Origin: Chrysoperla carnea
Lineage: Eukaryota > Arthropoda > Insecta > Neuroptera > Chrysopidae
Direction: 5' to 3'
DNA: 64,000 nucleotides
NCBI RefSeq assembly: GCF_905475395.1
Contig: NC_058337.1
Location: forward strand, 138,453,172 to 138,517,171
Part shown: one piece after another, positions 3,919 to 46,212 of the stretch
How the letters are laid out: each line of letters starts with the position of its first letter
Numbering within the stretch: the stretch's first letter is position 1
The notes under the pieces: generated by a model
What the model was told of the DNA's origin: nothing
The model's input: only the letters and a program-made list of their open reading frames with translations
Database searches by the model: none
Position numbers and translations under genes: made by a program

Positions 3919-4011
3919 AATAAATATTTTTTACATAAAATTTGTATATTTTAATAAAGTTTTTGAAATTTTAATAATTAATTGTTTCATTTATATTTCC
4001 TTTTATTGAAT

Positions 4012-5401: not shown

Positions 5402-5560
5402 GAAAACATTTATGTGTACAGTAAATCTGTTTACCAACCGAAATATCAATTACTAGAAGAGACTTTAAAATTAGTGGAAGGGGTTAGCTATTTTCCATTT
5501 AGTGATACTAGTGAAATTCTTAGTCCGAATGAAGCTCGAAAAAAAAAAAAGTCAAAATGA
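5402..5560 (+). pseudogene. Polinton packaging ATPase, C-terminal remnant (right arm)
   Basis: An open frame from the satellite boundary to TGA at 5558-5560 encodes the part of the ATPase after the ENIYVYSK block, ending in a lysine run. Element 2 (57141-57238) has the same DNA but lacks 8 bp after the AGTAAA triplets, which shifts its frame. The P-loop half is missing here, so no active ATPase can be made. Confidence 0.75.
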
Positions 5561-5653
5561 ATTCAATAAAAGGAAATATAAATGAAACAATTAATTATTA
5601 AAATTTCAAAAACTTTATTAAAATATACAAATTTTATGTAAAAAATATTTATT

Positions 5654-6154
5654 TTAAATAAATGGTAATAATGATATACAAATGTTTTTTTCATTAAATT
5701 TTTTATACATATTTTCAGCATTTTCTAAAGCACACATAGTATTGGAATATTTGTGATTTGTACATCTTCGACTTGAGTAATTATTTTTTAATTGCTTCAA
5801 TGTTTCATAACATTTAATATCTTCAAAGTTGTATATTTCTCCATCAGTATATTCTTCAACCCATTTTAGTTTTTCTAATCCTTTTACGATGATCACATCA
5901 AAATTTTTTAAAACGTTTCTTATCAACTGTTTACGTTCACTGTATGCGCAGTGTCCATCTATCCAACTTATTCCATGATAAAATTGACTTAGAAACCGTA
6001 CTTGTTTTTGAATATTTAAAGTTAAACTTGACAATGGTTCCGGTGATTTGAAAATAAAATGTTCAACATAATTTGTAGAAACCATAGCAAATTCTTTAAT
6101 AATAAATTTGTTTTTTTGATTTTTAAATCCTTGTACATCTACAAAACAAGTCAT
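5654..6154 (-). CDS. Polinton-associated protein, VDVQGF family (mirror copy)
   Basis: Identical at the protein level to the product at 3418-3918. It converges with the ATPase remnant, with about 90 bp of poly-A-rich spacer between them. In element 2 the homologue (53074-53562) instead lies next to the major capsid gene, so gene order differs. Confidence 0.7.
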   Translation of the reverse strand: MTCFVDVQGFKNQKNKFIIKEFAMVSTNYVEHFIFKSPEPLSSLTLNIQKQVRFLSQFYHGISWIDGHCAYSERKQLIRNVLKNFDVIIVKGLEKLKWVEEYTDGEIYNFEDIKCYETLKQLKNNYSSRRCTNHKYSNTMCALENAENMYKKFNEKNICISLLPFI

Positions 6155-6357
6155 AATATATTTTGTTTTAAATTTCTATTTGCAATTGGTTCCGGAGGGA
6201 CACTGCAGAACAAAATAATAATAATAATAATAAAAATAAAAATAATGTAAAAAATATATACAGAAAAAACTAACTGAAGCAAAGGTGAATTTCAAAAGAG
6301 ATACTTCAACAGCTACGGACATCACTTTTTATAGCATTATCCCCCCCACTAAAAAAG
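6155..6357 (-). promoter_or_regulatory. Mirror promoter and leader of the 166-aa gene
   Basis: Reverse complement of 3215-3417: G-tract, TATA box and (TAA)n leader. Confidence 0.55.
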
Positions 6358-6386
6358 TTGTAATTTGATATTTTTATAATCATAAT

Positions 6387-7272
6387 TCAAACTAATTATT
6401 TTTTCTTGGAATTCAGACAAGTTTAAACAAGTTCAAACAAGTTTAAACATGTATTTTTATTCAAACAAGTTTGAACTTGTAACAGGATGATGATATCATA
6501 TTTTTCAAGGTCAAATCTATTTCAACATATTCTTGAAAATTGCTGACACGTGTAAAATTATTTTAAGATCAAAGTCCATTCAAACAAGTTTGAACATGTA
6601 TTTTTATTATGTAAATTTCAAGTGTCATATTACATCGCTGACTCAATAAAAAAAAAATATTAACATCCGGTCACGTGTTTTGACACATGTAAAATTATTT
6701 CAAACAAGTTTGAACTTGTAACAAGATGATGATATCATATTTTTCAAGGTCAAATCTATTTCAACATATTCTTGAAAATTGCTGACACGTGTAAAATTAT
6801 TTTCAGATCAAAGTCCATTCAAACAAGTTTGAACATGTATTTTTATTATGTAAATTTCAAGTGTCAAATTACAATATTTTTCAAGGTTAGATGTTATCTA
6901 TTTCAACATATTCTTGAGAATTGCTGACTCATAATATTCTTTTCTTGGAATTCAGATTTGCAAATTATTATCTAACACGTTCAAGTGTCATATTACATTG
7001 CTTAATCATAAAAAAATATTAACATCCGGTCACGTGTAAAATTATTTTAAGTCGATTAAAACAAGTTTGAACTTGTAACAGGATGATGATATCATATTTT
7101 TCAAGGTTAGATGTTATCTATTTCAACATAAAAAAAAAATAAACATCCGGTCACGTATCTTGAATTTTATCATGTCTACTTAAAGTGTCAAATTACAATA
7201 TTTTTCAAGGTTAGATGTAATCTATTTCAACATATTCTTGAGAATTCTCTTTCTCCTGTCCCGTTAGATTTG
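6387..7272. repeat. Internal subterminal repeat block (mirror copy)
   Basis: Reverse complement of 2300-3185, with three CATCCGGTCACGT units (about 6665, 7025, 7146) and the TTCAAACAAGTTTGAA palindromes. Confidence 0.75.
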
Positions 7273-7451
7273 GATATGAACCAGATATGAACTGAGAAAT
7301 CAGAGTATTAAAGCAGATATAAAAACAATTTTATTAAAAAAATTGAAAAAATCAGAGTATTGAAGCAGTTATCAAATCAATTTTGTTAAAAAACTTATAA
7401 AATCGGAGTAGTTTTTAACAAAAACTTATAAAATCGGAGTAGTTACCAGAA

Positions 7452-7688
7452 ATATTCACCATTCACGAGGTGAAACTTACAAACCCAAGAACATATTTAT
7501 TGAAGGATTACAACAACGAAGATATAAAGGGTGGTTTCTATGTTGAAGAATTACAAAAAGTTCACGATCCAAACATTTATTTAGTGGAAAAGGTCTTAGC
7601 TAAACATGGATCTAACGTTAAAGTCAGGTGGTTAGGGTTCGACTCTTTACATGATTCATATATTGATAAAAAAAGTCTCCTTTTATAG
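7452..7688 (+). pseudogene. Polinton integrase C-terminal fragment with chromodomain (mirror copy)
   Basis: Identical to the fragment at 1884-2120. The catalytic core is missing. The open frame begins before the ATG at 7470, so that ATG is not the true gene start. Confidence 0.8.
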
Positions 7689-8097
7689 TGGAAAGTTTTT
7701 GTGAACATAATTGTAACAAAAAAATTTTGCCATAGTGGACCGCTTTTGTGAACATATTTGTGTTTTAAAAAATGTATTTTTTAATATGAATATATATTAG
7801 ACTAGGTTCATGAAATTTTATTGAAGCAATTTTTAACTAACACAAAACAATATAAAAATATTGTTGTAATACAAATGTTTTTTGATTCATGTTTATTACT
7901 CAAAATTACTTGATGGTGCGAATATAATTATCACAAACAAGGTGTATTTATAACCTGAAAATAAGGTGGTGAGGTCATTTCATAGATAAAACACAACAAT
8001 GATTATTTAAATTATAGGTGTTTTTTATTGTAAATACAAACACATTTAAAAAAAAAAAAAAACCTTATCATAGACAATTATATTCATGTTTTTATTT
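7689..8097. other. Non-coding interval, mirror of 1477-1883
   Basis: AT-rich, no gene seen. It carries poly-A/T runs and the single small length difference between the arms. Confidence 0.6.
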
Positions 8098-8770
8098 CTA
8101 TATACAATCATGATCATCACTATTTCTTCCACAATCACATCTGTCTATTTCATTACAATTTGTAGCACATATCCATGGCTCGAACCATTTCGGTATATTT
8201 CCACCATCCATTTGTTGGTATAGCATTCTACAGAGAATTTTAGGATCTATTTGTTCATACCATAAAAACATTCTCTCATCATGTCTAGCACTATCACCAA
8301 TCCATTGTTTTCGGCGGATATCGTATGTACCCCAATTTTTTCTCAAGTTACTTCCATGAGTAAGATCATCACAACATTCATTTAGTAATATTTCAAACTG
8401 ATTGAAATCTCTTTTAAAGTAGTTGAACTTTTTCGCATAATTTACAAATAAGATTGCATCCAAACAATTTCTTACTGTAAATGCAGCAATATGAAAGCAA
8501 TCATCAACTTCTAAATAAGAATACCGTAATGTGTCGATTAACTTTGTAGGTATACTCCAACGACATGCCTCCATAAGTTGATAAAATTCCATCTATAAAA
8601 ATATTTGGCTACAATTTTCTAAACAGATCTTATCAAACAATACTCACATTAAAATATTCTGGGTAAATCATTTCCGAATTTTGAAACAGATCAATATGAT
8701 TTTGTAGCGACATTGTACCCCATAATTGTAATGAATTAAAATAAACACCATTTTTTACAAAAATATCCAT
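8098..8770 (-). CDS. Spliced 205-aa Polinton-associated protein (mirror copy)
   Basis: Exon 1 is 8648-8770, intron 8593-8647, exon 2 8098-8592. Sequence, splice signals and product are identical to 804-1476. The function is not recognised. Confidence 0.6.
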
Positions 8771-8892
8771 AATTTATTTAGTATTATTTTTTTTTTTAAA
8801 TATCAAAAACATAAACTTTACAATTTTTTTATAACAATAACAATAAAATATATATATCTTGCAGTAATAAAATTCAATATAGGAATGATTTG

Positions 8893-9264
8893 TTAAAAAT
8901 TTTGATGTTCTTGAACATAGTCATCATCATCATCATCATTACTATCACCATCGTCTTCGAATAGGCGCAGTCTCAGTTGGTGACTTCTTCCAATTTTCTC
9001 CTCCACCCTCAAATACCCCGGTTTTGTGTTAAATAATTTAATCATGTTGTCCGTCAACACTGCAAACCTAGATGGTAGAAAAACTCCCTCGTTTTCTGTA
9101 CCATCTAGGCTTATATCCAGTAAAACTTTTATTGATGGCCCATGTATCGTTAGAATCCGCTCCATTTTTAGTATTTTTAATTTTTTTTTCAGTGGCAAGT
9201 AGTCCATTTTTATGCATGGTCGCACTAAACAACTATCTAATAATTTTAATTCTGCTCTATTCAT
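8893..9264 (-). CDS. Polinton-associated 123-aa protein (mirror copy)
   Basis: Identical to the product of 310-681, including the acidic tail. Its promoter (mirror of 212-309) lies at about 9265-9362. Confidence 0.6.
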   Translation of the reverse strand: MNRAELKLLDSCLVRPCIKMDYLPLKKKLKILKMERILTIHGPSIKVLLDISLDGTENEGVFLPSRFAVLTDNMIKLFNTKPGYLRVEEKIGRSHQLRLRLFEDDGDSNDDDDDDYVQEHQNF

Positions 9265-9362
9265 TTTGATTAATATTATGAATATTTAATGAAAACTGAT
9301 ATTACCGTAATGTCGAGCGCCTTTTTTATATGATTACCACCACTCCAAAAATCCCCCCCACC
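9265..9362 (-). promoter_or_regulatory. Mirror promoter of the 123-aa gene
   Basis: TATA box near 9322-9331 and the C-tract ATCCCCCCCAC near 9351-9361 on the plus strand, the reverse complement of 212-309. Confidence 0.55.
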
Positions 9363-10195
9363 AGCAGAAATTATTATCTAATCTCATAACACGTGTAAAA
9401 TTATTTTAAGATCTAATGCGATTCAAACAAGTTTAAACATGTTCAAACAAGTTTGAACATGTATTTTTATTCAAACAAGTTTGAACTTGTAACAGGATGA
9501 TGATATCATATTTTTCAAGGTCAAATCTATTTCAACATATTCTTGAGAATAGCTGACACGTGTAAAATTATTTTAAGATCAAAGTCCATTCAAAACAAGT
9601 TTGAACATGTATTTTTATTATGTAAATTTCAAGTGTCATATTACATTGCTTAATCATAAAAAAATATTAACATCCGGTCACGTATCTTGAATTTTATCAT
9701 GTATACTTAAAGTGTCAAATTACAATATTTTTCAAGGTTAGATGATATCTATTTCAACATATTCTTGAAAATTGCAGACTCATAATATTCTTTTCTTGGA
9801 ATTCAGATTTGCAAATTATTATCTAACACGTTCAAGTGTCATATTACATTGCTTAATCATAAAAAAATATTAGCATCCGGTCACGTGTTTTGACACATGT
9901 AAAATTATTTCAAACAAGTTTGAACTTGTTACAAGATGATGATATCATATTTTTCAAGGTCAAACATATTCTTGAAAATTGCTGACACGTGTAAAATTAT
10001 TTTAAGATCAAAGTCCATTCAAACAAGTTTGAACATGTATTTTTATTATGTAAATTTCAAGTGTCATATTACATTGCTTAATCATAAAAAAATATTAACA
10101 TCCGGTCACGTGTAAAATTATTTCAAACAAGTTTGAACTTGTAACAGGATTATGATATCATATTTTTCAAGGTCAAATTAACATATTCTTGAAAA
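9363..10195. repeat. Subterminal repeat block of the right terminal repeat
   Basis: Contains three copies of CATCCGGTCACGT (about 9671, 9875, 10101), several TTCAAACAAGTTTGAA palindromes and TTCAACATATTCTTGA units. Three copies of the CCGGTCACGT unit also occur in the internal block and in the element 2 block. Confidence 0.8.
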
Positions 10196-10750
10196 TTGCT
10201 GACTAATGTCAACGTCCCGCCCCCCGTTCACTCTCCGCCACTATTGGTCAAAGCCAATGACGTCACCCCCCCGTTTATGCTTAGGCAGCCATTCCTCCCC
10301 ACCAATTCAACCACACCTCCCGATGCCATCTTGATTTTTACAGCGCTACTATTGGTCAAAGCCAATGACGTCATCAATGCTTAGGCAGCCATTATCCCCC
10401 AACACCACACCTCCCGACGCCATCTTGATTTACTATTGAAAGTGGGCTCGATTATCTCATCTAACGTCCAATTCCCGCCCCCTTTAAGCCCCACTTCCAA
10501 GAAACACACTCCTGTCAACCACGCCCATCACTATTGGTCAAGCCCCGTTTATGTCATTCCTCACCCCCACCACACCTCCCAACGCCATCTTGATTTTTAC
10601 AGCGCTACTATTGGTCAATGACGTCATCTATCCCCTCCAACTTCCGAGGTTTCCAACATTCACCTAGGTTTGCCCTTTTTTGAAAAGTGTACCATCAAAA
10701 CGGGGTTACTTGAGGTCAAACTGGCCCAGAACATACATGACTCTTCTACT
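10196..10750 (-). repeat. Right terminal inverted repeat of element 1 (GC-richer outer part)
   Basis: Matches the reverse complement of 39682-40300, the left end of element 2. It is built from repeated CCAAT-type ATTGGTCAA boxes, TGACGTCA (about 10258, 10366, 10619) and GCCATCTTGATTT modules. The outermost shared motif with element 2 is TGACTCTTCTACT, ending at about 10750. Read inward from the tip this is AGTAGAAGAGTCA, which fits Polinton termini beginning with AG. Proline-rich ORFs here are not genes. Confidence 0.75.
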
Positions 10751-24723: not shown

Positions 24724-24882
24724 TCCAGGAACTATTTGAGCAAGAAGAAAGTAATAATTTAATGCCCTTACCATTAGAAACGTTTGATTTGTCATCGAGG
24801 CATAATCGAAAAGTAGCAAAAGATTGTCATATCACCATAGATAATAATTATTATTCTGTACCAGCAAAATATATATACTGCT

Positions 24883-26263
24883 TTAACATGAAGAGTTGGT
24901 AAAGTGATTAGAACCAATGGTTTGAAAATTGTCATTTACCAATGAAGAAATTCTATTTCTATATTTTTCAATATTTTCAAAAAATGCTCTTATAGATTCA
25001 GTAAATGCCTCAAAATTTGAATAAAATTTATTGTTACTGACAACAGAATACATAAATTTCCACAGTCGTTCAATTGGATTAAGATTAGGACTATATGGTG
25101 GCAAAAATAATAGTTCTATTTTACTGTTTTGTAGATATTCTTTTACCTTTTTTGACCTATGATATCCTGCATTATCACATATCAAGTAAATTTTGCTTTT
25201 CTCTTGGTTATTTTCTTCCAATTTCTTTAAAAATTCAATGATGTAATCACCATTAACTTTAGGATTATCAGTTGTTACTAAATTTAGATTTTTTACATCA
25301 ATTGCACCTATAATATGCTTACGTTTCCATCCACTAAAGCTTGGTAACGTTTTAACTGTATTCTTCCTAATCCAACCAAATCTAGCTCTAGTCTGATATT
25401 GAGGATGAACACTATCCATAAAGTAAATAGACTCATCCTTAGCTAAATTATTCTTTAATAAACTATATTGCAGCTTAAATTCCTCCTGCTTGGCTAAATC
25501 TATTTTCCCAGGAATTAACTTAGGTTTTTTATAACTAAAACCTAATCTGTGTAACAGCTTGATTACCCCAGCTAATGTGTAGATTACTCCATATTGACGT
25601 TCTATGTACAAATCTATATCTCTAGCATAAACATTATTATTATCTTCTAAATGAACTATTAACTCTGCTTCCTGAACTACAGTAAGCTTGCTGTAACTAC
25701 CACCATTTTCAGGCTTAAGCTTCTTATCTTTATGATAATCTATTAAATGTTTTCTTATCCCCTCATCACTCAGTAATAACACTGTTAATATCTCAGCAAT
25801 ACTATAGCCATTATAATAATAATAATAATAATATAATAATGGAGTTTTACCTCCGTTCCTCAGACATTTAAGTCTCTAACAGAGGCCACCCACATCATTA
25901 TGTTTTAATCTTTATTTATTTCAAATACATTCGAATATATACAATTAAATTTTCATGATGTGGATAGAGTCGGTTACTTCGTTCTTACCCAAGCGACGAC
26001 AGTGTGATCAATTTACCGCCCATTAACTATTTTTGTTCACACTGCCGCTGCCTAGGTTCGAACCCGCAACCTCCCAGCCAGTGATCATAGCTTGCTAAGA
26101 CGCCTTAGCGAGCTCGGCCACTGGACCGGTTGTATATATAACTATAGCCATTATCATACATAAGAACAGCTTTGATCCGGTCTCTAATCCTACCATCTCT
26201 CTCCTGCTTATGATGGGCTTTTAATTCTTGTCTTTCTATTACTGCTAGTTTTTTATATTCCAT
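24883..26263 (-). pseudogene. IS630-family transposase, interrupted by a host SINE
   Basis: The C-terminal 299 codons hold the DDE core: YFMDSVHPQYQ, ICDNAGYHRSKKV and YSPNLNPIERLWKFM. The N-terminal part begins at the ATG at 26263 (MEYKKLAVIERQEL) and reaches the SINE at 26154. When the SINE and one copy of the 14-bp duplication are ignored, the frame is continuous and shows no other stop, so the gene was open when the SINE arrived. Confidence 0.85.
25801..26154 (-). mobile_element. tRNA-derived SINE with 14-bp target duplication
   Basis: On the minus strand the element starts near 26140 with a tRNA-like head. An A-box-like TGGCCGAGCTCGCTAAGGCG lies at 26101-26120 and a B-box GGTTCGAACC at about 26054-26064, with a spacing and long variable arm like tRNA-Ser/Leu. 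The body follows, and the tail is an ATT/TAA microsatellite at 25815-25840. ACTATAGCCATTAT is present on both sides, at 25801-25814 and 26141-26154. RNA polymerase III SINEs occur only in eukaryotic nuclei, so this dates after transfer of the bacterial DNA into a host chromosome. The specific SINE family was not identified. Confidence 0.9.
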
Positions 26264-26745
26264 AGTTACTTGATTAGCATATTATCTTACTCTAAGCAAT
26301 TATTCATTTACTAGAGGTATATGCAGTGAAGTATTGGTACAATTATCACTAAACCTTGTTCAAATATTTTCTATACAAAATGATTTAATAGCAAGACACG
26401 TTAGAGTAGATGGCAAAGGAATATTTACCACTAATTCGTCTCATTATTCCAAATATAAACGTCTATGCCCAGGTTTTATAGAATATAGCGAACATTATCA
26501 ACAACAAATGCAGCAGATAGGCAATAATTGCAGTTTATTATTAGAGTTATTACAACAAACACGAGTAAATGATTGGCAACGTTGTGCTCGCGGTATTATT
26601 TCTTTACGTAAGGTTTACAATGATGAGTTATTAGATAAAGCCTGTCATAGAGCATTACATTACGGTATAAGTTCTTACTCTAAAATTAAGAACATCTTAA
26701 ATAGTAATGCAGTAAACTTACCATTGCCAGAGTTTGGAGGTCAGA

Positions 26746-28931: not shown

Positions 28932-29063
28932 TTATCTCTCAGATGAAAGTGGTTGATTTGGATCTCTAAATGGATGGGGATAGTTTTGATAATGCTTTTC
29001 GACTTTGGCTAAATCTTTTGAAATTTTTGTAGAAGCATCTTTTATTTTTTTTAAATTGCTCAT
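28932..29063 (-). CDS. Small hypothetical protein (43 aa)
   Basis: Short ORF MSNLKKIKDASTKISKDLAK, ending PNQPLSSER, with a lysine-rich amphipathic helix. It lies 12 bp downstream of the recJ end on the same strand. Length and placement suggest a real small gene, but the function is unknown. Confidence 0.4.
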   Translation of the reverse strand: MSNLKKIKDASTKISKDLAKVEKHYQNYPHPFRDPNQPLSSER

Positions 29064-29074
29064 AAACATCATTT

Positions 29075-30832
29075 TTAAGTTATTATTATATCTTTTATAA
29101 TTAACTGAATAGTGTAATTATTTTGCCAATTATTTGTCTTTAATGTTCCTTATACTGAAATATTATGTGCTTTAGGACTAAGTAATACCTCTTCAAATGA
29201 AGTACCTAACGAATTAAAAGCAATAGCTAGTAATGCTTTACTACTGGAACTTTTTTTATTCGGAGCAAACAAGCATCTAATATGCTTACTTCCCACTTTA
29301 TCCGCTTTTAATACAAATAAATTATCAAATTTAAATATAGGTTCATAATTACCTTGACCAAAAGGCTCCAAAGTACTTAATTCCTCCATTAAAGGTAAGT
29401 AGACGCTCCTAAGACTTAAATCAAGATCATATTCTGCTTGCTTCTAATTTTCTAGTCTATTTAGACTAATTCTAAAAGCGTTATTTAAAAATTCTTGTAA
29501 TTCTTGTATTTTTTCGGCAACTACTGTAAAACCTGCTGCCATGGCGTGTCCTCCGCCAGCAATTAGTAAATTTTTGACTTTAGCATTAATAATCTCAGCC
29601 CCAAAATCAACACCTAAAATAGAACGACATGATGCTTTACCGATCCCGTCATTTAAGGCTATAACTGCTACTGGTTTATCAAATTTCTCTTTAAGTCTTC
29701 CTGCAACAATACCTATAACACCAGGATGCCATCCTTCTTTAACAATAAATAACAAACTATTATCTTGCTGCGTCTTAGCCATTTCCATTGCTTCTTCTAT
29801 CATCAGCATTTCAATGACTTTACGTTCATTATTATGCTTCTCAAGCTCCTCAGCTAATTTAAGAGCTTCATTAGAGCTATTAGTAGATAATAGATTAGCA
29901 CCTAAACTTGATTTTCCTACTCTACCGCCAGCATTAATACCCGGACCTAAAATAAAACCTAAATGATAACATTTTGGGATTTCATTAAGCCCTGCCATAT
30001 CATATAACGTTTTAATGCCGATATTTTGCCTTTGATGCATTATTTTTAAGCCGCTCGATACAAAAGCACGGTTTAACCCAATAAGCTTTACCATATCGCA
30101 CACAGTACCAAGAGCCACCAAATCCAAATATTTTATCAAATTAGGCGGAAGAGTTTTCTCAAAATAATTTTGCTTCTTTAAATCTGATAATATCCCAGTT
30201 GCAAATAAAAAAGCAACCCCTACAGCTGCAAGATGTTTACATTCACTTGTCTCATCAACACGATTCGGATTCACTATAGCTACCGCTTCAGGTAATATTT
30301 CAATAGCTATATGATGATCAATAACGATTACGTCAAGCCCTGCATCCTTTGCGTATTTCAAGGCTTCATGAGCCATCACCCCACAATCAACTGTTTTTAA
30401 TAATTCAGTGCCGTTATCTTTAATTTTTTGCATAGCAGAAGGAGTAGGACCGTACCCTTCAGCTATACGATCAGGGACATAAATATCACAAACAATATTT
30501 AAATCTTTGAAAACATTTTTAAGTAATGCTGACGAAGTAGCACCATCGACGTCATAATCGGCAAATATACATATTTTTTGCTTATTTAAGATAGCTTTAA
30601 TAGCTCTATCTACTGCCTTTTGCATATCAAGTAGATGGAAAGGATCAGGAAGCAAATTCTTGATTTTCGGCATTAAAAAATCTTCTGCCTTAGCTATATC
30701 ATCAATCCTTAAAGATATCATTCTAGCAAGCAAATCACTGATTTTAAAACTACGGCATAATTCTATGACTATTTCCTCGTTAACGCTTCTACGCTGCCAT
30801 ATTTTACCATTTATAGATGCTTGCGATTTCAT
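29075..30832 (-). pseudogene. recJ: Single-strand exonuclease RecJ, two nonsense mutations
   Basis: RecJ is a 5'-3' single-strand DNA exonuclease of the DHH family. Visible motifs are ADYDVDGATS (motif I, near residue 93), VIVIDHH (motif III) and GGGHAMAAGFTV (DHHA1). An in-frame TAG lies just before 29444 and a TAA at 29150-29152. The frame between and after them continues to TAA at 29075, so no indel is needed. The middle DHH and DHHA1 domains are intact; the C-terminal OB domain is cut. Confidence 0.9.
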
Positions 30833-30868
30833 TAATTACCTAAATTGTTTAAACGTTTTCATATGATG

Positions 30869-31156
30869 TTAGGTAATTATACAACAAAAATCATCATTTT
30901 TACCCATACAATCAAACGTACCGCAATCACTTTCCTTTTCTGAATCTAAAATTTTTGTTTGACTATTATTATCACTATCCTTGTGCTCTTTTAATGAGTC
31001 TGTATCAGCAGTGATACTAATTATTTCTAAATCTTCATCATTATAGTTATCTTTTTTCTCTTCTATTTCATTTAACAGAATTGATTCATTACTATTTAAA
31101 CTATTATTAGAATAAGTTTCTTCTATTCTTACATTTCCAATTGACACGCTAGACAT
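30869..31156 (-). CDS. Acidic Rickettsia hypothetical protein (95 aa)
   Basis: 95 aa, very rich in Asp, Glu, Ser and Asn, without a hydrophobic core, so probably disordered. It ends FCCIIT, whose last four residues form a CaaX-like box. It starts near recJ's 5' side on the same strand. No family recognised. Confidence 0.5.
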   Translation of the reverse strand: MSSVSIGNVRIEETYSNNSLNSNESILLNEIEEKKDNYNDEDLEIISITADTDSLKEHKDSDNNSQTKILDSEKESDCGTFDCMGKNDDFCCIIT

Positions 31157-31342
31157 TCTACCTTGAGGATCATATGTATATATCGTTATATCGTTATATC
31201 ATTTTTATCTTTATCTATACTTCACCTCTTATAGATTTGTTCTATTTTTCATATAATTTTAGAACTAAATTCTTGACTCATTCCAGCTAAAATTAAATGG
31301 CTTTCCCGTTCCATGTCTAAATAATTTATATTTAGACAATTA
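31157..31342. other. Intergenic region
   Basis: AT-rich, with short TATATCGTTATATCG repeats near 31178-31200. No gene seen. Confidence 0.5.
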
Positions 31343-31924
31343 TCATTTTCTATTTTTTTTTTTTTTTTGCTCTCTTAAGTGCTTCTTATAAGCATTAATA
31401 TCTCCTTTACCGTTGTAAATAAATCCGGTATTTTTTGCTGTCTTTTCTTTGGCATACTTATCATAAGCTTTAACATTTACCTTACCGTCTTCATCTATGA
31501 ATCCAGCATTTTTTGCAGTTTGTTCTAATATATATTTATTATAATTTTTTAGATCCACATCGCCATCTTTACCTATAAATCTGGCTTTCTTTGTCGCTTG
31601 TTTTCTTGTATATTTATTATAAGTTTTTATATCAGCTTCGCCATCTTTATCTATAAATCCAGCATTTTTCGCAGTTTGTTTTCTGAGGTACTTATCATAA
31701 GCTTTTATATCCCCATTACTTTCTTTATCAATAAATCCAGCTTTCTTTGCTGATTTCTCTTCTCTATAACCCGCATAGGCTGATAAAAGTTCTTCTTTAT
31801 TATCAGAATTTTTAAAACCAAGTTTTTCTGCTTTAAACTGTAATCTTCTAATTTCTAATCTTTCTTTTGCTAACTCTTTGCTTGTTTTATTCTGAGATTC
31901 TTTCAATAGTTTACGTTTACCCAT
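31343..31924 (-). CDS. Tandem-repeat lysine-rich protein (193 aa)
   Basis: After a basic coiled-coil start (MGKRKLLKESQNKTSKELAK), five or six repeats of about 27 residues follow, with the consensus K-x-AGFIDKDG-x-x-D-[IL]-K-x-Y-[ND]-KY. The DKDG core looks like an EF-hand-type loop, but the flanking spacing is not a clear EF hand. I do not know the function. It is intact, lies just downstream of prfA and ends in a lysine-rich tail. Confidence 0.6.
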   Translation of the reverse strand: MGKRKLLKESQNKTSKELAKERLEIRRLQFKAEKLGFKNSDNKEELLSAYAGYREEKSAKKAGFIDKESNGDIKAYDKYLRKQTAKNAGFIDKDGEADIKTYNKYTRKQATKKARFIGKDGDVDLKNYNKYILEQTAKNAGFIDEDGKVNVKAYDKYAKEKTAKNTGFIYNGKGDINAYKKHLREQKKKKNRK

Positions 31925-31933
31925 ATGAACCCT

Positions 31934-33007
31934 TTATATATCTGAAAGCTTCTTAGCCTCATCATTTGCAATTGAAGCCTCAATAAATTTATCTAACTGT
32001 CCGTTAATTACCTCATCTATTTTATAAAGAGTAAGATTTATTCGATGATCCGATACACGTCCTTGTGGAAAATTATAAGTACGTATACGCTCCGAACGAT
32101 CCCCAGAGCCTATTTGCTCACGTCTATTATTGGCTCTTTCTTGATCTTTTTTCCGACGTTCTTCTTCATATATTCTAGCACGTAAGAACTTTAATGCTTT
32201 GGCTTTGTTTTTATGTTGGGATTTTTCATCTTGTAGTGCTACAGTAATACCGGTAGGTATATGTGTTAATCGGACAGCAGAATCAGTTGTATTAACGTGC
32301 TGCCCTCCTGCTCCTGAAGCTCTATAAGTATCAATTCTTAAATCTTTTTCCTCAAGTTTAATATCAACATCTTATACTTCAGGAAGTACAGCAACAGTAG
32401 CAGCCGAGGTATGAATACGCCCCTGCGATTCAGTTTCCGGAACACGCTGCACTCTATGGACTCCTGATTCAAGTTTGAGCTTAGAGAATACATCTTTACC
32501 TTTTATAGATGCTGAAACTTCTTTGTATCCCCCTATGCCTGTCTCATCAATAGATAATATCTCAAAACGCCAGCCTTTTAATTCCGCATATCTTTGATAC
32601 ATATTAAACAGCTTAGCAGCAAAAAGTGCTGCCTCTTCACCGCCTGTGCCTGCTCTAATTTCAATAATAGCACTTTTACTATCCGCTTCATCTTTTGGCA
32701 GGAATGCTATTTTTACGGAACGCTCAAGAGTTGGCAACGAATCTTCAATATTGCGTATTTCTTCCTCAATCATTTCTAGAGTTGCCTTATCTAAACTAGG
32801 ATCTTGCTTAAAATTATTTGCTTCTTCAAGTTCAGCTTTAGCTTTGTTTTATTCCTTAATTTTTTGGACAATATGTTCAAGGTCAGCATATTCCTTGGAA
32901 GCTTTAACAAACTCCTCTCCTCCTATTCCTGAGGATAGTTTTTCACTTAAATCCTCATATTTACCTAAAATTTTTGTCAGATTATCCGAAAAGCTTGAAA
33001 TGTTCAT
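31934..33007 (-). pseudogene. prfA: Peptide chain release factor 1, two nonsense mutations
   Basis: RF1 ends translation at UAA and UAG. The frame of 357 codons includes the catalytic [18 protein letters not shown] (GGQ motif). In-frame TAA codons at 32849-32851 (codon 53) and 32372-32374 (after TVAVLPEV) break it, without any frameshift. As an essential single-copy gene it could not be dead in a free bacterial chromosome, unless another copy exists. Confidence 0.9.
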
Positions 33008-33034
33008 ATTATTTTATTCGTGATTTATTTGTGG

Positions 33035-33155
33035 TGAGGTATCGTCATTGCGAACGACCGCAGGGAGTGCGGCAATCTCATGAAACAATATTAGGACTCC
33101 TGAGATTGCGCACGTACAAAACTTTCAGTTTCTTCTCGCAATGACGGTGAATGAG
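33035..33155. repeat. Rickettsia palindromic repeat
   Basis: ATCGTCATTGCGAACGACC ... TTCTCGCAATGACGG with GAGATTGCGCACG in the centre. It lies between prfA and pdhC. Confidence 0.8.
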
Positions 33156-33156
33156 A

Positions 33157-34403
33157 TTACAACAATAATAGGGCAGGGCTTTCTATAAAACTCTTAAACG
33201 CAGCTAAAAATTCTGCTCCAACTGCTCCATCTACTACTCTGTGGTCAGCAGAAAGAGTTACGTCCATAATTGTTGATATACTTATTTGATCATTTTTGAC
33301 TATAGCACGTTTTGAGCTACTGCCAACGCCCATTATACAACTTTGCGGCGGGTTAATTATAGCATTGAAATTTTTAATACCATACATACCAAGATTTGAA
33401 ATAGTAAACCCTCCGCCTTGGAATTCTTCGGGAGTTAGTTTATTTTCTCTGGCTTTCTTGATTTGCCCTTTCATTTCACTAGACAGATCTATAATATTTT
33501 TCTGGTTAGCATTTCTAATTATCGGAGTAACAAGTCCATTTTCAATTGCTACCGCTACTGAAATATCAACATTATTGTAGTGTCTAATAGCATCATCCCC
33601 CCACGATGCATTAGCGTTCGGTACTTCTTGCAAAGCTTTAGCAACAGCTAGGATAATAAAGTCATTAACTGATATTTTTGCTGATTTATCATCGCCAAAA
33701 GACTTATTAATATCTTCTCTTATATCTAGTAACTTATCAACATTACATTCTATTGATAAATAAAAATATGGAACTGTTTGTTTTGATTCAAGAAGACGCT
33801 TAGCTATAATTTTACGTATATTGTTATTAGGTGCTAAACGATATTCTTCAGGATTTCTACTAACTATTTTATTATTTAAGGTTTTTGAGCCGCCTTTATG
33901 CGATAATACATCTTGTTTGATTATTCTGCCATGCGGTCCACTACCTTTAATTTCTTCAAGTTTCACATTTTGGATTTTTGCAAGTCTTTTAGCAAGAGGT
34001 GAAGCAAACACCTTAATATTGTTTTGATCTGAAGCGGTCGTAATATTCTCTTCCTTAACGTTCTGAGGAGCTATAGTTTCAGCAGGTTTTGATATTTCTT
34101 CTTTTTTAGGTGAATTACTGTTGTTTTTCGCTATAAATTCTTCAATTTCGGATGATTCTTCCCCCTCTTCGATTAATACCGCTATTAACGAATTCATAGG
34201 CACGTTCTGACTACCTTGAGGAATAATTATTTTAGCAAGAGTACCCTCATCTACTGCCTCTACTTTCATAGTTGCTTTATCGGTTTCGATTTCAGCGATT
34301 ACTTCTCCGGGATTGATTTTATCCCCTTCTTTTTTAACCACCTTGCTAAATTCCCTTCCGTCATAGTTGGAGATAAAGCAGGCATTAAAATTTTGATTGG
34401 CAT
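33157..34403 (-). pseudogene. pdhC: Dihydrolipoamide acetyltransferase (PDH E2), frameshift near N-terminus
   Basis: E2 is the core of the pyruvate dehydrogenase complex. The natural start at 34403 gives [18 protein letters not shown], the lipoyl domain start. One A is missing in a poly-A run near 34330, so the rest is read from another frame. The remainder has the lipoyl lysine [13 protein letters not shown], a peripheral-subunit binding domain ([11 protein letters not shown]) and the catalytic [15 protein letters not shown]. Only the GTG-start downstream ORF (394 aa) is open. Confidence 0.9.
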
Positions 34404-34454
34404 AATTTGTTATAGTTTTGATTTTTTTATTAGTATTTTTGGTTTATAGTAAAT

Positions 34455-34562
34455 CAACATCGTCATTGCGAGGAGATGCGTAGCAGAGGGTGAAGGCAAT
34501 CTCAGGAGGCTTAATAAGATTGCCGCGTCGGTTATTAAAATAACCTCCTCGCAATGACGTAT
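34455..34562. repeat. Rickettsia palindromic repeat
   Basis: ATCGTCATTGCGAGGAGATG ... CTCCTCGCAATGACG, the same family as 19195 and 21356. Confidence 0.8.
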
Positions 34563-34566
34563 TACA

Positions 34567-35089
34567 TTACACCTTATTGTCAGGGCTAACTATCATTATC
34601 ATTTGTTGGTCTTCCATTTTAGTTTGCTGATCAATCTTAGCAAGTCCCTCTAATCCTACTTCTATACGTTTAAATAATTCCTCACCAACATCCTTATGAA
34701 GAATTTCTCTACCTTTAAACCATAAAGAGATTTTTACTTTATCACCATCTTTTAAAAAATTCTTTTATTTTCCTTAGTTTAGTTTCAAAGTCACCTATAC
34801 TAATATTAGGTTTGAATTTCATTTCTTTAAGTACGACTATTTTTTGCTTTTTACGTGCTTCATGCAAACGCTTTTTGCTTTCGTACTTAAATTTACCGAA
34901 ATCTAAAATTTTACATACAGGAGGCTCAGCATTAGGCGATATCTCAACCAAATCAAGACCGACTATTTCAGCCATATCAAGTGCTTGCCTAATATTTACG
35001 ATGCCATGCCTCTCGCCATTTTCGCCTACTAAACGAACCTCTCTAGCTCTGATTTCTCTATTAGCTTTAGGAAAATTATTTTTAGAAAT
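34567..35089 (-). pseudogene. infC: Translation initiation factor IF-3, frameshifted
   Basis: IF-3 prevents subunit joining and checks the start codon. The frame shows [20 protein letters not shown] and the linker [21 protein letters not shown] frameshift in a T/A run near 34755 moves the C-terminal domain ([16 protein letters not shown] to the stop at 34567) out of frame. An ATG at 35117 is in another frame and soon stops. The in-frame start is probably the non-AUG ATT near 35089, a known habit of infC genes, but a mutated start is possible. Confidence 0.85.
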
Positions 35090-35188
35090 AAAACTACTCC
35101 GTCTTATGTTGTTTCATATTGCATTTAACTTATTTTACTCTAAATTACAAGTAAATAAAATATTTTAGCTTTATTTTTATATATTCTA

Positions 35189-35534
35189 TTAAAAAAATGG
35201 GAAAGATATAATTAAACAAATACCGAATACCAATACAGCAACAATACCAAATATTGTTAGACAAATTCTAGTTAATTTAGCAACTTTTTCCTTTATTTTT
35301 AAATTTTGTAATTCTATCTCATGCTTGTGAGCTTGCTCTTTTTGTGCCCATATTCACTAACTTTTCTAAAGTACCTGGATAAATATTTTCATATTCGGTA
35401 ACTGTATCAATTGGCGGCAATATATGCTCAAACTTTTTACGATAAAAATTTTTATCTATTTCAGAATGACAACTCTTAGCATAGCCTTTGTTTAATCTAT
35501 TATTTTTTGTAAAAAAACTTTTAGTCTCTTTCAT
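35189..35534 (-). pseudogene. DUF2335-type membrane protein, frameshifted
   Basis: The N-terminal ORF (35319-35534) has KFEHILPPIDTVTEYENIYP, typical of small phage-associated DUF2335 proteins. After a frameshift near 35345 the second half gives a helix (HKHEIELQNLKIKEKVAK) and a transmembrane segment (CLTIFGIVAVLVFGICLI) to the stop at 35189. Confidence 0.75.
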
Positions 35535-35691
35535 ATTCTCTTATTATTTTTAGAAACGTACATGCTAAATTATCTCTTACTATCTCAAAATAGTCAAACA
35601 ATGCTACTTCTTTCTTTTGCTCTATATTGTTGCTTGTTTTGAATATAGTCTTTAATTCATTAAAAATCACTTTTATAAAGCTTTGTTTCAT
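35521..35691 (-). CDS. Small hypothetical protein (56 aa)
   Basis: ORF too short for routine calling: starts MKQSFIKVIFNELKTIFK, ends LKIIREYERD. It overlaps the start of the DUF2335 gene by 14 bp (stop and start interleaved), suggesting translational coupling in a small operon with the GTA genes. No family recognised. Confidence 0.5.
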   Translation of the reverse strand: MKQSFIKVIFNELKTIFKTSNNIEQKKEVALFDYFEIVRDNLACTFLKIIREYERD

Positions 35692-35693
35692 TA

Positions 35694-36473
35694 TTATATT
35701 AAATGTGAATTTATAAAATCTTTCTCAGGTATTAGCGGTTCGCCTCTAAAATTTATAGCATTATTAAATTTATTGCAACAAGTTATAAAATTTTTATCAC
35801 TGATATAATTTTTACTTCTCTAGCATCCTTAACATAATCAGGTATAACGTCTTCTAATATAAACAAATTACCGAAGTTGCTTAAAACTTGACTACTAAAA
35901 TTATTATCACAAAATATAATTTGACCCCAGTTATAATAGCCATTTTCTTTATCTAAATTTTCTATTCTTAAACTTTCTTTTAGAATTTCTTTAATCTTAT
36001 ATACTCCACTATATAAGTTTTTATCTATTTTGCATTTATTATCCCCAAAACTCACTCTGCATGTTTTACTATATCTATTAATTATAGTTTGGTTATATTT
36101 TATTGTTTCAGGCTTTAAATGCATTTTAAAGTTCAAATCATATTTTGTATATAAAGTGCAATAATATGTAATAAAATGCTCAAAAACACCATTATTATAT
36201 AATATTATTTTAACAGCAGCATTATTTAAATTCATTTCTGCCGTGATGCCTTTTTCTTCAAAAATACCCTAAATAATTACTTGATTTTGTGCGGAATCAT
36301 TAAATTCTGCTTCTTTCAAATCTAAACCGGAATTCGGTAAAAAATTATATCTTCATTTTTTATAATATGATCGTTACCCGTTAGATTTAATTCCTTACCA
36401 TTTGCATACTTAATTTGAAAGCAATAAGCAAAATTTTCTAACTTTGTAATTAACTTTTTAATTAAAATACTCA
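35694..36473 (-). pseudogene. GTA-type tail protein DUF2163 (gp13-like), multiple breaks
   Basis: DUF2163 proteins belong to the tail tip of Rhodobacter-type gene transfer agents. The main ORF (35783-36235) has SKTCRVSFGDNKCKID. The C-terminal end (NFITCCNKFNNAINFRGEPL) is in another frame and stops at 35694. Upstream, the N-terminus starts at 36473 with MSILIKKLITKLENFAYCF but is interrupted by a frameshift near 36345 and an in-frame TAG near 36270. At least three lesions are present. Confidence 0.8.
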
Positions 36474-39681: not shown

Positions 39682-40300
39682 AGTAGAAGAGTCAGCCCAC
39701 TCCTGGCCCAAAAGAATGGTACACTTTTCAAAAAAGGGCAAACCTAGGTGAATGTTGGAAACCTCGGTTGAATGCGAAGTTGGAGGGGATAGATGACGTC
39801 ATTGACCAATAGTAGCGCTGTAAAAATCAAGATGGCGTTGGGAGGTGTGGTGAGGGTGAGGAATGACATAAACGGGGCTTGACCAATAGTGGTGGGCGTG
39901 GTTGACAGGAGTGTGTTTCTTGGAAGTGGGGCTTAAAGGGGGCGGGAATTGGACGTTAGATGAGATAATCGAGCCCACTTTCAACCCCAAAGTATGGTAC
40001 ACTTTTCCAAAAAGGGCAAACCTAGGTGAATGTTGGAAACCTCGGCATTGACCAATAGTAAATCAAGATGGCGTCGGGAGGTGTGGTGTTGGGGAATAAT
40101 GGCTGCCTAAGCATTGATGACGTCATTGGCTTTGACCAATAGCAGCACTGTAAAAATCAAGATGGCGTCGGGAGGTGTGGTTGAATTGGTGGGGAGGAAT
40201 GGCTGCCTAAGCATAAACGGGGAATTACCAGGTGACGTCATTGGCTTTGACCAATAGTGGCGCTTGACGGAGAGTGAACGGGGGGCGGGACGTTGACATT
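39682..40300 (+). repeat. Left terminal inverted repeat of element 2
   Basis: Starts AGTAGAAGAGTCAGCCC and matches the reverse complement of 10196-10750. It carries three TGACGTCA sites (about 39793, 40119, 40213), CCAATAGT boxes and CAAGATGGCGTC modules. The segment near the tip (ATGGTACACTTTTC ... CAAACCTAGGTGAATGTTGG) occurs twice, at about 39717 and 39990, so this end contains an internal duplication of about 270 bp. Confidence 0.8.
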
Positions 40301-40975
40301 AGTCAGCAATTTTCAAGAATATGTTGAAATAGATTTGACCTTGAAAAATATTGTAATTTGACACTTTAAATATACATGATAAAATTCAAAACACGTGACC
40401 GGATGTTAATATTTTTTTATGATTAAGCAATGTAATATGACACTTGAAATTTACATAATAAAAATACATGTTCAAACTTGTTTGAATGGACTTTGATCTG
40501 AAAATAATTTTACACGTGTCAGCAATTCTCAAGAATATGTTGAAATAGATTTGACCTTGAAAAATATGATATCATCATCCTGCTACAAGTTCAAACTTGT
40601 TTGAATCGACTTTATATGTGTCAAGACACGTGACCGGATGTTAATATTTTTTTATGATTAAGCAATGTAATATGACACTTGAACGTGTTAGATAATAATT
40701 TGCAAGTCTGAATTCCAAGAAAAGAATATTATGAGTCAGCAATTTTCAAGAATATGTTGAAATAGATATCATCTAACCTTGAAAAATATTGTAATTTGAC
40801 ACTTTAAGTATACACGATAAAATTCAAGATACGTGACCGGATGTTAATATTTTTTATTGAATCAGCAATATAATATGACACTTGAAATTTACATAATAAA
40901 AATACATGTTTAAACTTGTTTGAACTTGTTTAAACTTGTCTGAATTCCAAGAAAAAATAATTAGTTTGAATTACG
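40301..40975. repeat. Subterminal repeat block of element 2
   Basis: The same units as in element 1, again with three ACGTGACCGGATGTTAAT copies (about 40393, 40628, 40835), and with TTCAAACTTGTTTGAA palindromes and TTCCAAGAAAAGAATATTAT units. Confidence 0.8.
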
Positions 40976-40997
40976 ATTATAAAAATATCAAATTACA

Positions 40998-41135
40998 ACT
41001 TTTTTAGTGGGGGGGATAATGCTATAAAAAGTGATGTACGTAGCTGTTGAAGTATCTCTTTTGAAATTCACCTTTGCTTCAGTTAGTTTTTCTGCATATA
41101 TTTTTTACATTATTTTTATTATTATTATTATGATT
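40998..41135 (+). promoter_or_regulatory. Polinton promoter copy leading into the LINE
   Basis: GTGGGGGGGATAATG and TATAAAAAGTG (about 41007-41030) match the promoter of the 166-aa gene at 3215. The downstream gene is not present because a LINE occupies the (TTA)n leader. After the LINE the sequence differs and leads to polymerase B. Confidence 0.55.
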
Positions 41136-44100
41136 TAAATTTGATATTAACGTATTCATGTCTGCCAAGGAGGGAGAGAGGATACAGGATTTACACCCCA
41201 GAGCCTCCCATCTCCTTGAGAGACATAAATCTTCACAAGGCAGCTACGTCTTTTGAAGAAAGTTCACTGACTTGTGGCCGTGTAGTCTGTACGTCCGTCA
41301 GTCCACGCGACGTCTGTTGGTCCGTCTGTTTTCCGAGTCGGTGGTACGTAAGTCTGTCTAATGTCCTGGTCAAGCAGGCTCCGTCCCTGCACCGCAGCGA
41401 TGTGGAACCTACTAAAAGAAAAAAAAATAGAAAAAGAAGAAAGAAACTTCAAGGGCTGTTACTTGAAGACAGTCTGATGCGATCTCAATGTACGAAGGGT
41501 GCCTATAATGACAGCCTTCTGCATAGAAGAGATAAGGTGACGAAGATGAGACCTGCAGACCGGAATTTGAGATAGATTCGTCTCGAGAGTTGGACGAATT
41601 CCGCCTAGGCAACCGATAATGAGGACAACCATTTTGACTGAGTAGCCAGGGTGTAGTTGTCGTAGTTCTTGTAAGAGATCAAGATATTTAGTCCGTTTTT
41701 GCTCCTCCTTCGTGACTATGTTCGTTTCTGCAGGCGCAGAGAACTCGATGACGTACATAGTCTTAGATAAGATATCCTGGAGCACTATATCAGGCTTAGT
41801 AGCAGAGAGCTGCCTGGTAGTTGGGAACGAGAAATTCCAGAAGATAATGCATTTCTCGTTCTTGACGACGGACTCGATCTCGCCTGGAGCATATGGTAGG
41901 ACTGGCGTAGGGTCCACTTCATACTTGTGTCTCAAGAAGTAGTACAGCACGCGGAGGGCAGCGTTATGGCGATGTATGTAGGTGTTCGTGGCATAAGAAG
42001 GACATGCCGAGATGAGGTGCATCAGCGTCTCCGGCTGAGATTTGCACGCTCTGCACATAGTGGTGGAGACTGCTTGCTTATATACATAATTTTGGTGAGT
42101 TAGCGTCGCTATCACACCATCTTGGGCAGCGATGATAAAGCCGTCTGTTTCGGACTTGAGTCCAGCTGATCGGAGAAAAGAGAACGTAAGATCAACGGAA
42201 AGACTGCAGGTGTCTAGATGACGGTAGAACATTCCCTGATGGTCACGATTCCGATGATCTTCGAAGAGGGAGCGTATTTCAGCTCGTTTTACAGCTGAAC
42301 GAAGTCGAGATTTGGAGAGAAGGACCACGTTATCATCAAGATCACGATTAGACGGATCAAAAGCAAGGCCCAATTTAGACGCTGCATGTTGTGCTGCAGA
42401 GAACAAGAATGCTCCTTTACCCTGTAACTCATGATCGCGCACGAGTTTCATAAGAGGGTCAGAACTATTTATGACCTGACAAGCTATTCCTAAAACTACC
42501 CTATCATGTAGACATTCAACGGATAGGAGACCTCTACCTCCTTGCTGGCGTGGGAGGTAATTACGCGGTACAGAAGCACGTGGGTGCAAACTACGATTGA
42601 CGTTCATGAGTTTGCGAGTGCCTCTGTCAAGTTCCTTAAGCTCCTCTATTGTCCATTTGATGGAACCAAAAGAATAGAGAAGGATGGGTATTGCAAGCAT
42701 ATTAGTAGCACGGATCTTATGGATCCCAGACAATTCTGATTGCCAGATTTGTCGAAGACGGTGCCTATACCTGCCGCGAAGAGCTTCCTTGACAGTAGAC
42801 ACACTTTGAATGTGGTTTTCACCGACACCCAAATATGTGTAGAGCTCTTCTTCATCGAGATGTTTCACGATGCTTCCATCTGTGAGCTGCACGTCTGCAT
42901 CGTAATCAGGGACACGACCCCTCTTACAATGAATGACGGCACATTTATCAAGTCCGAATTCCATGCCAATAGCCTTCGTGTACTGATGGACAGCTTTGAG
43001 AGCTTGAGATAGACTGCTCTCAGAAGAAGCATAAAGTTTCAGGTCATCCATATAGAATAGATGAGTTACCTGATGCTTCCTATCTGCCGGGGGACCACAA
43101 CGGTAACCAGTTTCTTCTCGCAAGCGCAAGGAAAGGGGCATAAGGGAGATGCAGAATAAAAGCGGGCTAAGGCTGTCGCCTTGATAGACACCACGCTTAT
43201 ACGTTACCAGATCTGTTGAGACAGTACGTTTACCACATCTAATGGTAAATTTGGTCTTCCACAAAGGTAACAGCTCTTCGATGCATCTGATGATATCGGG
43301 GTGAATTTTCAAACATTTGAGCAGCACCAATATGAGTTGGTGAGAGGTAGTGTCAAATGCTTTCCTATAATCCACCCAGGCCACACTCAGGTCGCGCTGA
43401 TACTGACGAGCGTCTTGACAGATACATCTGTCAACAAGAAGATTATCTTTGCAACCTGATATACTTCGTTTGGAGCCGCGTTGCTCGTATATCATCTGCC
43501 AAACCGGTTCTATGGTTGTGAGTATGCGTTCATTAAGAATGGAGGTGAACGCTTTGTACACGGTATTGAGACATGTAATCGGGCGATAATTGCTCGGAAC
43601 TGAAAGGTCTCCTTTCTTGGGAATCAAAACTGTTCGTCCTTCCGCGAACCACGTTGGAAAGGTCCCGTACCCAAGGATGTATGAAGTAAAGTGCCTAGCA
43701 AGATGTGCGTGTGTGGAAGTTAAACGTTTCCACCAGAAGTTGGACACAGCATCCATGCCAGGCGCCGAATGATTCTTCTTGCCTTTGAAAGCAAGGGATA
43801 CTTCATCAGCGGTAACAGATGTTAGGACCGCTTGTTCTGCTAGGCGCACGTTGCAGAACCTTTCGAACAGTTTGATTGGTCTTATATTTTTATGTACACT
43901 AGTCGACTTTTCATATAAATCACGCCAGTAGCCATCGATTTGCTCTATCGAAGGTGGATTCTCGACGAGAGAAGGGGGTTTTGCAAATAAACGGGAAGGA
44001 TTCGATGCAAAGATCTTGTTCTCTCGAATACACTTCTCGCGTTTAACTAGCTTTTTCCGAGCGAGAGCTAGTGCACGTATCTTTTCAATGTTTCGCTGCT

Positions 44101-45489
44101 TGATAGTGAGCAGGATACCCTTGTTTAGTGTGTGGTGTTGGTGCCTGAGTTCACGCGCGAAGGCTCGCACCTTTGGGGTGAAGGGTTTACCAGCTTTCTG
44201 GTACTCTAACACACACTCGATACGTGATACCGTCTGTCGTAGAGGGGTCAACTTGGAGTCAAGTTGCTCTATACGCTTGCGTGTTTTCTCCTCGGCTGTC
44301 TCAGTAGACTTGGGGGCAGGAGAAAGAGCACACATTGCAGCATAGACTGAGCTATCGATTTCGAGTAGGCTACTTGTGTGATTCAGATGATCGTCGACGA
44401 TCTGGTTGATTAAAGCAAGGTCTTGTGCTTTGGCAAACGTTTTGCGGTACTTGGGACGTTTGCGTTTGGAAAGGTCATTATCGGTTTTGAACAGGATATT
44501 TTGAAACCGCTCTTTAAGCTCTTCCAAACGAGTGTTTGGTGGCTCAGCAGGAAGGATCGGAGTTTGCTCTACGTTGGCTTCCGTGGTCGAAGTGAGTGGC
44601 GTGGCTGTTTCCGCCGTTAACACAGATAGTGCTGGGATATCTTCGGGTATCAGAGGCGTAGGTGCTGAAGCCTCTAACACAGGTGGTGGTGGGGTATTTT
44701 GACATACCCGATCCTGTGTCTCAGTATCAGATCTCTCACTTTCTAATACTGGCTCATCCTGAGATATTCCATCCTGCGTCTCAGCGACTAATGTCTCACG
44801 TGTAGGATGAACTACACCAATAGCAGCCGGCTCTATCTCATCACCTCGATTCACTTCCGCTTGCGTAGTCCTGCATCGTTTCTCTTGTCCTGTTCGGGGT
44901 TTGTCAAATCCGGTTTTTTTGAGACGGGATGCTTGATCGCGTAGATGTTGCGATTTCATATGGGAAAGTTTGGGATGCTTTTCGCACCAGAGGGTGTGCA
45001 TCCTGCCCATATAGCCACGTCTAGATGGTTCACTTGCTTCGTAACAAGTGAGCAGGTCAGCCTTAAGTGCCTTCGTCCATTGAAAGCACTGAAGACGACT
45101 GTTTTGTGTGCTCGCTCGACTTTCTTGAGAAGTGCCTTGAGATGGCTCTTCGTCGTCAGCGGCACGTCTAGTCTCCGGGACTAGCCTGGGATCCAAAGCC
45201 AAATTTGATTGCTCTCCCTCATATCCGTGAGAGCTACCCCCTATAGGTAAGGTAGAAGCGTCACCTGCAGGGGGGCGGGGTTCTGTAGGACTGGGTCGAC
45301 TACTACCTGCCTGAGGACCGAAAAATCTGCTTCTCAAATTTGACATTTTTTGGATTTGACTCATTTAGCTCCGCTGAGTCAGCACGGACCCACCTCGTTA
45401 GCCCATCACTTTGAGCGGAATTGATGGTTACCGGGTATGGCACGTGTCCTAGTGTTAGGCTCGGACGTGAGGTTAGGGATTGCCTGCCC

Positions 45490-45490: not shown

Positions 45491-45544
<54 letters not shown>

Positions 45545-45556
45545 CATTATTATTTT
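45490..45556. repeat. (ATT)n microsatellite
   Basis: About 20 ATT units at the 5' end of the LINE. The opposite flank near 41116-41136 is a shorter ATT run. Together they are the split target tract. Leucine- and tyrosine-run ORFs here are not genes. Confidence 0.9.
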
Positions 45557-46212
45557 GTTTTTGGTATATTTATTATTCTAAACTTAGTCTATATATTTTA
45601 TACAAAAAACAAATATTACTCAGTTGTAAGTTAACTTTAGTGTTGAACGTTCGGTAACGTATATTTTGCTTAGTATTTGAAAATATAACGGTAAGTGTAT
45701 AAATTTTTTAAATAATATTGTGAAACTTAAATATAATTTTTTTTGAAAGAAGGACACCTACGAACAAAATGTTATGCAGACGCTAAACATGGTACCTCAA
45801 GGTGGTAGCACTGATATGATGAAGAAAGTGGAGAGAGCGTTGAGGCTCATCAAGACGGTGGAGGAAGCTGAGCGATGGATTATACTTAATAAGCAGAACA
45901 TCCGCTTATTCAAAAAGATGTTGATGTTAAAGAAAGAAAATCCTCTGCGTCTTGAAGCTAATATTGGACTTTGTAAATCATACCAGCGGCAACTTCACCG
46001 ACTGCGATTAGATTTAGTTAAACAAGGTGGTGGAGTCACCAAAAAACAAAATCGACATCTAATCTGGGAGACAATTGAAACCACCATCAGGGCAGGGTGA
46101 AGACTGGTATGATTACAAATTTGGATTATAAAGATCCAAATATATTTTTCAACCGGGCATTTCCAATGTTTAGAAGACACGTTCGGCGTGAGCTAGTGAA
46201 GCATCCCCTCAA

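Follow-up and report, generated by a model that had tools for sequence, protein, structure and literature searches.

A host SINE within a Rickettsia-derived transposase gene on chromosome 1 of the green lacewing Chrysoperla carnea

DNA of a Rickettsia related to Rickettsia sp. MEAM1 has almost certainly moved into chromosome 1 of Chrysoperla carnea and decayed there, and a host SINE has subsequently inserted into one of its transposase genes. The window, i.e., the whole 64-kb stretch of DNA that was analyzed, maps in its entirety to chromosome 1 of the C. carnea assembly inChrCarn1.1 (138453172-138517171). The assembly comprises 559 Mb in 337 contigs, with chromosome 1 accounting for 139,979,878 bp. 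The main features of the window are listed in Table 1.

Table 1. Positions of host and rickettsial features in the 64-kb window
Feature	Position in window	Strand	Basis or remarks
Host repeat, with 4.4-kb inverted repeat (1-4334 / 5238-9573)	1..10750		Host-locus matches
Rickettsial IS630-type element, split by SINE	24876..26321	minus	Domains, open frames, sibling alignments
Target-site duplication, left copy ACTATAGCCATTAT	25801..25814	+	Exact match; single in siblings L022-L024
Host SINE	25815-26140	minus	326 bp; (TAA)n tail adjoins left duplication; A-box-like motif and B box near head (right side)
Target-site duplication, right copy ACTATAGCCATTAT	26141..26154	+	Exact match
Rickettsial genes, decayed	28953..36010		Collinear with MEAM1 392597-400492 in 5 pieces, 94-98% DNA identity
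Host Polinton-like stretch, LINE inside, adjoining rickettsial DNA	39694..57237		Host loci; DJR-like and PLA2-like domains
LINE open reading frame, RVT_1, 1301 aa	41459..45364	minus	Domain; 40 scored host matches including query

A preliminary description of this DNA had reported a 326-bp insert flanked by a perfect 14-bp duplication at 25801..26154, and these coordinates proved to be exact: counting both strands, the window contains just two exact matches to the 14-mer ACTATAGCCATTAT, at 25801 and 26141. On its minus strand the SINE carries an A-box-like motif (TGGCCGAGC) and a perfect B box (GGTTCGAACCT), both in this copy and in the family consensus, from which an internal Pol III promoter is predicted. 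The Pol III boxes and TAA tail described earlier were found, the A box as an A-box-like motif. The right duplication is separated from the SINE head by about nine bases that the consensus lacks. The accompanying claim that the SINE is tRNA-derived fared less well: the A and B boxes hint at a tRNA origin of its head, whereas ARAGORN at default settings found no tRNA in the SINE, Rfam gave no useful match, and ARAGORN at a 60% threshold returned a poor 80-base cloverleaf on the SINE consensus. Features shared with the tRNA-type SINEs of insects are the A/B box, the simple 3' tail, the target duplications, and the dispersed copies, and in neither case was any coding capacity found; unlike theirs, the head of the lacewing SINE goes unrecognized as a tRNA at default thresholds. 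The SINE RNA (25838-26137, minus strand) was computed to fold at -120.9 kcal/mol (z -11.4), and none of 200 shuffles did as well.

In one scan 51 relatives of the block's DLST gene were retrieved, the best from the Bemisia tabaci Rickettsia sp. MEAM1 (95% amino-acid identity) and the second best from the Rickettsia of Diachasma alloeum (91%); the eight other records with Rickettsia in the title lay at 71-81%. Judged by these identities and by the collinear alignment (Table 1), the closest sequenced relative of the block among those compared is Rickettsia sp. MEAM1. We take the MEAM1 Rickettsia to be a member of the R. bellii clade. That is the clade in which a survey has placed the Rickettsia of C. 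carnea (PMC7762206). A group II intron match (Rfam RF00029, 54.6 bits) was also seen in the rickettsial DNA, at 11012-11087 of the window.

The block extends well beyond the window. IS256-type transposase sequence occurs on chromosome 1 at 138.363-138.366 Mb (locus L031) and at 139.400-139.402 Mb (L123), so that the block was traced over about 1.04 Mb close to the end of the chromosome; mutS, IS elements, and 16S lie between the two. The block may reach further left, to a glycosyltransferase frame located at 138.281 Mb (L050). Because the block was read at scattered points, host stretches may divide it; its ends were bracketed only. None of the six genome matches to citrate synthase falls inside the block; therefore, either the transfer was partial or that gene was lost, and a complete genome transfer is unsupported.

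The bacterial DNA stands in a host chromosomal context, i.e., at a position on chromosome 1 with satellite on its left, host repeats on its right, and a host SINE inside a bacterial gene. On the left, one satellite is common to samples at 138.05, 138.15, 138.19, 138.20, 138.24, 138.26, and 138.27 Mb, and to parts of the samples at 138.21 and 138.25 Mb; a long satellite array thus lies directly left of the block, at 138.05-138.27 Mb (L049, L118, L120, L121, L133-L135). On the right there is an RVT_2 frame at 139.43 Mb, with repeats common with host loci at 139.44, 139.45, and 139.60 Mb. Within the window, matches to host loci cover 1-3448, 3805-4352, 4995-5767, 6124-10750, 25810-26162, 39694-46891, 50447-51846, and 57049-57237. 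The inverted repeat is multicopy, occurring at the end of chromosome 1, on the X, and on other chromosomes.

Between them, the two long host stretches of the window (Table 1) and L115-L117 hold the 4.4-kb inverted repeat and Polinton-like pieces (a DNA_pol_B_2, a Pox_A32-like ATPase, and DJR-like and PLA2-like domains), which have been amplified on the X and at the end of chromosome 1. The chromosome 1 samples at 138.21, 138.22, and 138.23 Mb contain Polinton-like pieces, and L117 has a DNA_pol_B_2 piece that can be aligned with 47272-49266 of the window. The LINE gave 40 scored matches at 97-100% identity, distributed over the six chromosomes and a single small contig, and seven copies, including that of the window, lie at C1:138.28-139.29 Mb. 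This young LINE has TAA repeats at both ends, which recall those LINEs that target such repeats.

Several of the bacterial genes are broken. Among the best candidates, which were those scored, there was one high-scoring match to bacterial 16S (1191 bits), at C1:139382497-139383821 (L105 1501-2825), and five weaker matches on C3 and C6. The 16S of the block aligned with that of MEAM1 at 98.3% (1088 bp) and 98.6% (222 bp), and lacked about 161 bp and 13 bp. Five MEAM1 reading frames face 31.3-35.6 kb of the window; three of these are frameshifted in the block and one has two in-frame stops, while the fifth is changed in repeat length only, which is no proof of decay. The DLST stretch compared, of 390 codons, is free of stops, which counts against decay. 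Private changes at codon positions 1 and 2 versus position 3 numbered 26:25 on the block branch and 42:103 on the two other branches, MEAM1 and D. alloeum, taken together, a pattern that points to relaxed constraint on the block; Fisher's test gave p = 0.006, but with MEAM1 as the sole comparison it was not significant (p = 0.13). A simple mixture put neutral change since the transfer at about 1.3%, a rough value from two genes. On this sequence evidence the rickettsial block looks dead and decaying in the nucleus. Because the block looks dead, as judged from the 16S deletions, the broken genes, and the relaxed constraint, the SINE is taken to have landed after nuclear transfer. The preliminary description had argued that the SINE could land only after nuclear entry, an interpretation that is supported here; with its broken 16S, frameshifts, and host elements, the block is no functional Rickettsia chromosome. 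Of the relative date proposed with it, the order (transfer, then SINE) stands, and an absolute date would need a lacewing mutation rate.

A different account of the same arrangement is that the SINE was reverse-transcribed into a living Rickettsia, perhaps an intranuclear one, whose chromosome was then misscaffolded onto chromosome 1. Intranuclear Rickettsia do exist, which lends this account some plausibility. C. carnea is, moreover, often PCR-positive for Rickettsia of the bellii clade (PMC7762206). However, the loss of conserved stretches from 16S, broken genes, and a host LINE and Polinton-like elements within the block are hardly compatible with a living Rickettsia, and we regard this account as very improbable.

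The transfer of rickettsial DNA into chromosome 1, followed by SINE insertion, is also what the interrupted gene itself indicates. The transposase, which has DDE_3 and HTH_33 domains and which, following the preliminary description, we take to be of the IS630 type, had been described as open on both sides of the insert. This was indeed so: the piece at 26263-26141 on the minus strand is a stop-free frame of 41 residues that ends in DNGYS, and the piece at 25812-24883, also minus, reads NGYSIAE... and has no stop up to its end. Four near copies of the gene, with 84-98% amino-acid identity, lie in the same block. In three of the four (L022, L023, and L024) the 14-mer is present once at the homologous place, i.e., these represent the empty site, and in the fourth (L025) it has a single mismatch there. 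When the flanks of the SINE were joined at one copy of the duplication, they aligned with L022 at 99.2% identity over 1106 bp without a gap, and with L023, L024, and L025 at 97.1% (one gap opening), 95.7% (five), and 98.0% (two), respectively. With the corresponding locus from the Rickettsia of Oxypoda opaca (L111), identity was 91.4%, with two gap openings. When the window was compared with 33 host and 12 Rickettsia loci, Rickettsia matches at 24874-25818 and 26141-26322 bracketed the SINE exactly.

Among ten Rickettsia genomes searched, two had any match at E<=0.001, and only the Rickettsia of O. opaca had a near relative of the transposase (91% amino-acid identity). That gene is uninterrupted, although its 14-mer differs. 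Among the findings that would overturn it, the preliminary description had named an identical insertion in a cultured Rickettsia chromosome; we did not see one in these ten genomes, a small sample.

Could host and Rickettsia reads simply have been misjoined to give an assembly chimera? Joins made by an assembler close to satellite arrays are generally prone to error, and it is next to such arrays that the block lies. However, a random join would not leave a mid-gene SINE bordered by a 14-bp duplication and by flanks that match a sibling copy without a gap, the window and the loci counted contain no N at all, and the reported contig N50 is 67.8 Mb (PMC10116181). We rejected a chimera on the basis of the duplication and the empty site, and give it next to no credence.

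The SINE belongs to a dispersed host family, in agreement with the earlier expectation that the repeat would be present elsewhere in the genome. In a genome search in which 40 of 2358 first-look candidates were scored, all 40 (query included) matched at 90-100% identity, and they were distributed over C1-C6. A 21-mer from the SINE head, with up to one mismatch, occurred at 48 sites in the host genome as against none for the reversed control, and the only one of the 48 inside the block was the copy studied here. Twenty copies were fetched, these being the best-scoring rather than a random set and including the present one; a simple scan, without a shuffled control, found exact flanking duplications of 8-18 bp in 18 of them, and none at the other two (L003 and L015). 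Relative to the 19 other copies, the present SINE has three private changes in about 300 bp, and it is separated from its nearest relative by differences at 4 of 294 sites. That the insert might be a rickettsial repeat or bacterial mobile element and not a host SINE, an idea that could draw on the many short repeats of Rickettsia genomes and on the failure of tRNA finders at default settings to recognize the head, has a negligible likelihood and was rejected, because the family is host-wide, with 39 of the 40 scored copies outside the rickettsial block, flanking duplications at most of the 20 fetched copies, and no match to the insert in any of the 12 Rickettsia loci compared.

We propose that a Rickettsia related to MEAM1 contributed a large part of its chromosome to chromosome 1 of an ancestor of C. 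carnea, perhaps in one event, the insertion taking place next to satellite arrays and near the chromosome end. The bacterial DNA would then have evolved without full constraint, with host transposons entering it, and one young SINE would have been copied from its Pol III RNA into the rickettsial IS630-type transposase, duplicating 14 bp. The copying was most likely by target-primed reverse transcription encoded by a LINE, a process that typically leaves behind a target duplication such as the 14-bp one seen here, a tail of simple sequence, and a small number of extra bases at the 5' junction. The SINE showed no similarity to the LINE of the window beyond the TAA repeats found at both.

Both host retrotransposons in nuclear Wolbachia DNA and an integrated tick Rickettsia chromosome are already on record. 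The nuclear Wolbachia insertions (nuwts) on chromosome four of Drosophila ananassae, in which host retrotransposons are numerous (PMC4299567), resemble the lacewing block in being a large insert from a rickettsial endosymbiont in an insect chromosome with host retrotransposons inside; they differ in that their donor was Wolbachia whereas that of the lacewing block was Rickettsia, and the latter offers one insertion with a target duplication and with empty sites in siblings. The chromosome of Rickettsia africae integrated in the tick Amblyomma variegatum (cited in PMC9228755) is likewise Rickettsia DNA reported from an arthropod nucleus, although both the Rickettsia and the host are different. 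The Wolbachia-derived f element of Armadillidium vulgare (PMC5541319) is, like the lacewing block, a large symbiont insert in an arthropod genome, but it acts in sex determination, whereas no function is suggested for the lacewing block. A term search of the C. carnea genome paper (PMC10116181) found no mention of Rickettsia or Wolbachia, and we saw no report of this insertion among the open-licence papers found, most of which were screened as listings.

What is new is that the nuclear 16S retains the two primer sites of a Rickettsia PCR in wide use. The primers GCTCAGAACGAACGCTATC and GAAGGAAAGCATCTCTGC, which occur together in 19 papers, have perfect sites in the nuclear 16S and would give a 963-bp product, the same as from MEAM1. 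Despite its deletions, the nuclear Rickettsia 16S pseudogene keeps these diagnostic primer sites. It is conceivable, although we consider it rather unlikely, that part of the Rickettsia infection scored by PCR in Chrysoperla represents the nuclear insertion segregating in populations. In the survey, 64% of wild C. carnea were Rickettsia-positive (33-92% per population), lacewings carrying Rickettsia only performed like uninfected ones, and transmission was 89% (PMC7762206); near-identical strains have also been described from C. carnea, C. lucasina, and C. pallida (Gerth et al., PMC5557424). Such segregation would fit the intermediate prevalence, the lack of a fitness effect, the 89% transmission rate, and the near identity of the strains of three sibling species; it would also agree with the perfect primer sites and the product of the same size, on the assumption that the primers match those of PMC7762206. 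Against it, Rickettsia titre in that survey was different in larvae and adults, and many individuals were negative (PMC7762206).

A host SINE inside bacterial DNA, together with its empty-site control, constitutes very clean sequence proof that the block is nuclear and not contamination, and records the transfer of Rickettsia DNA on a megabase scale into an insect used for biocontrol. It carries a warning, i.e., that in Chrysoperla the product of a Rickettsia 16S PCR may come from a pseudogene on the chromosome. The SINE junction itself provides a simple presence/absence marker for the age of the insertion and its polymorphism across the species complex.
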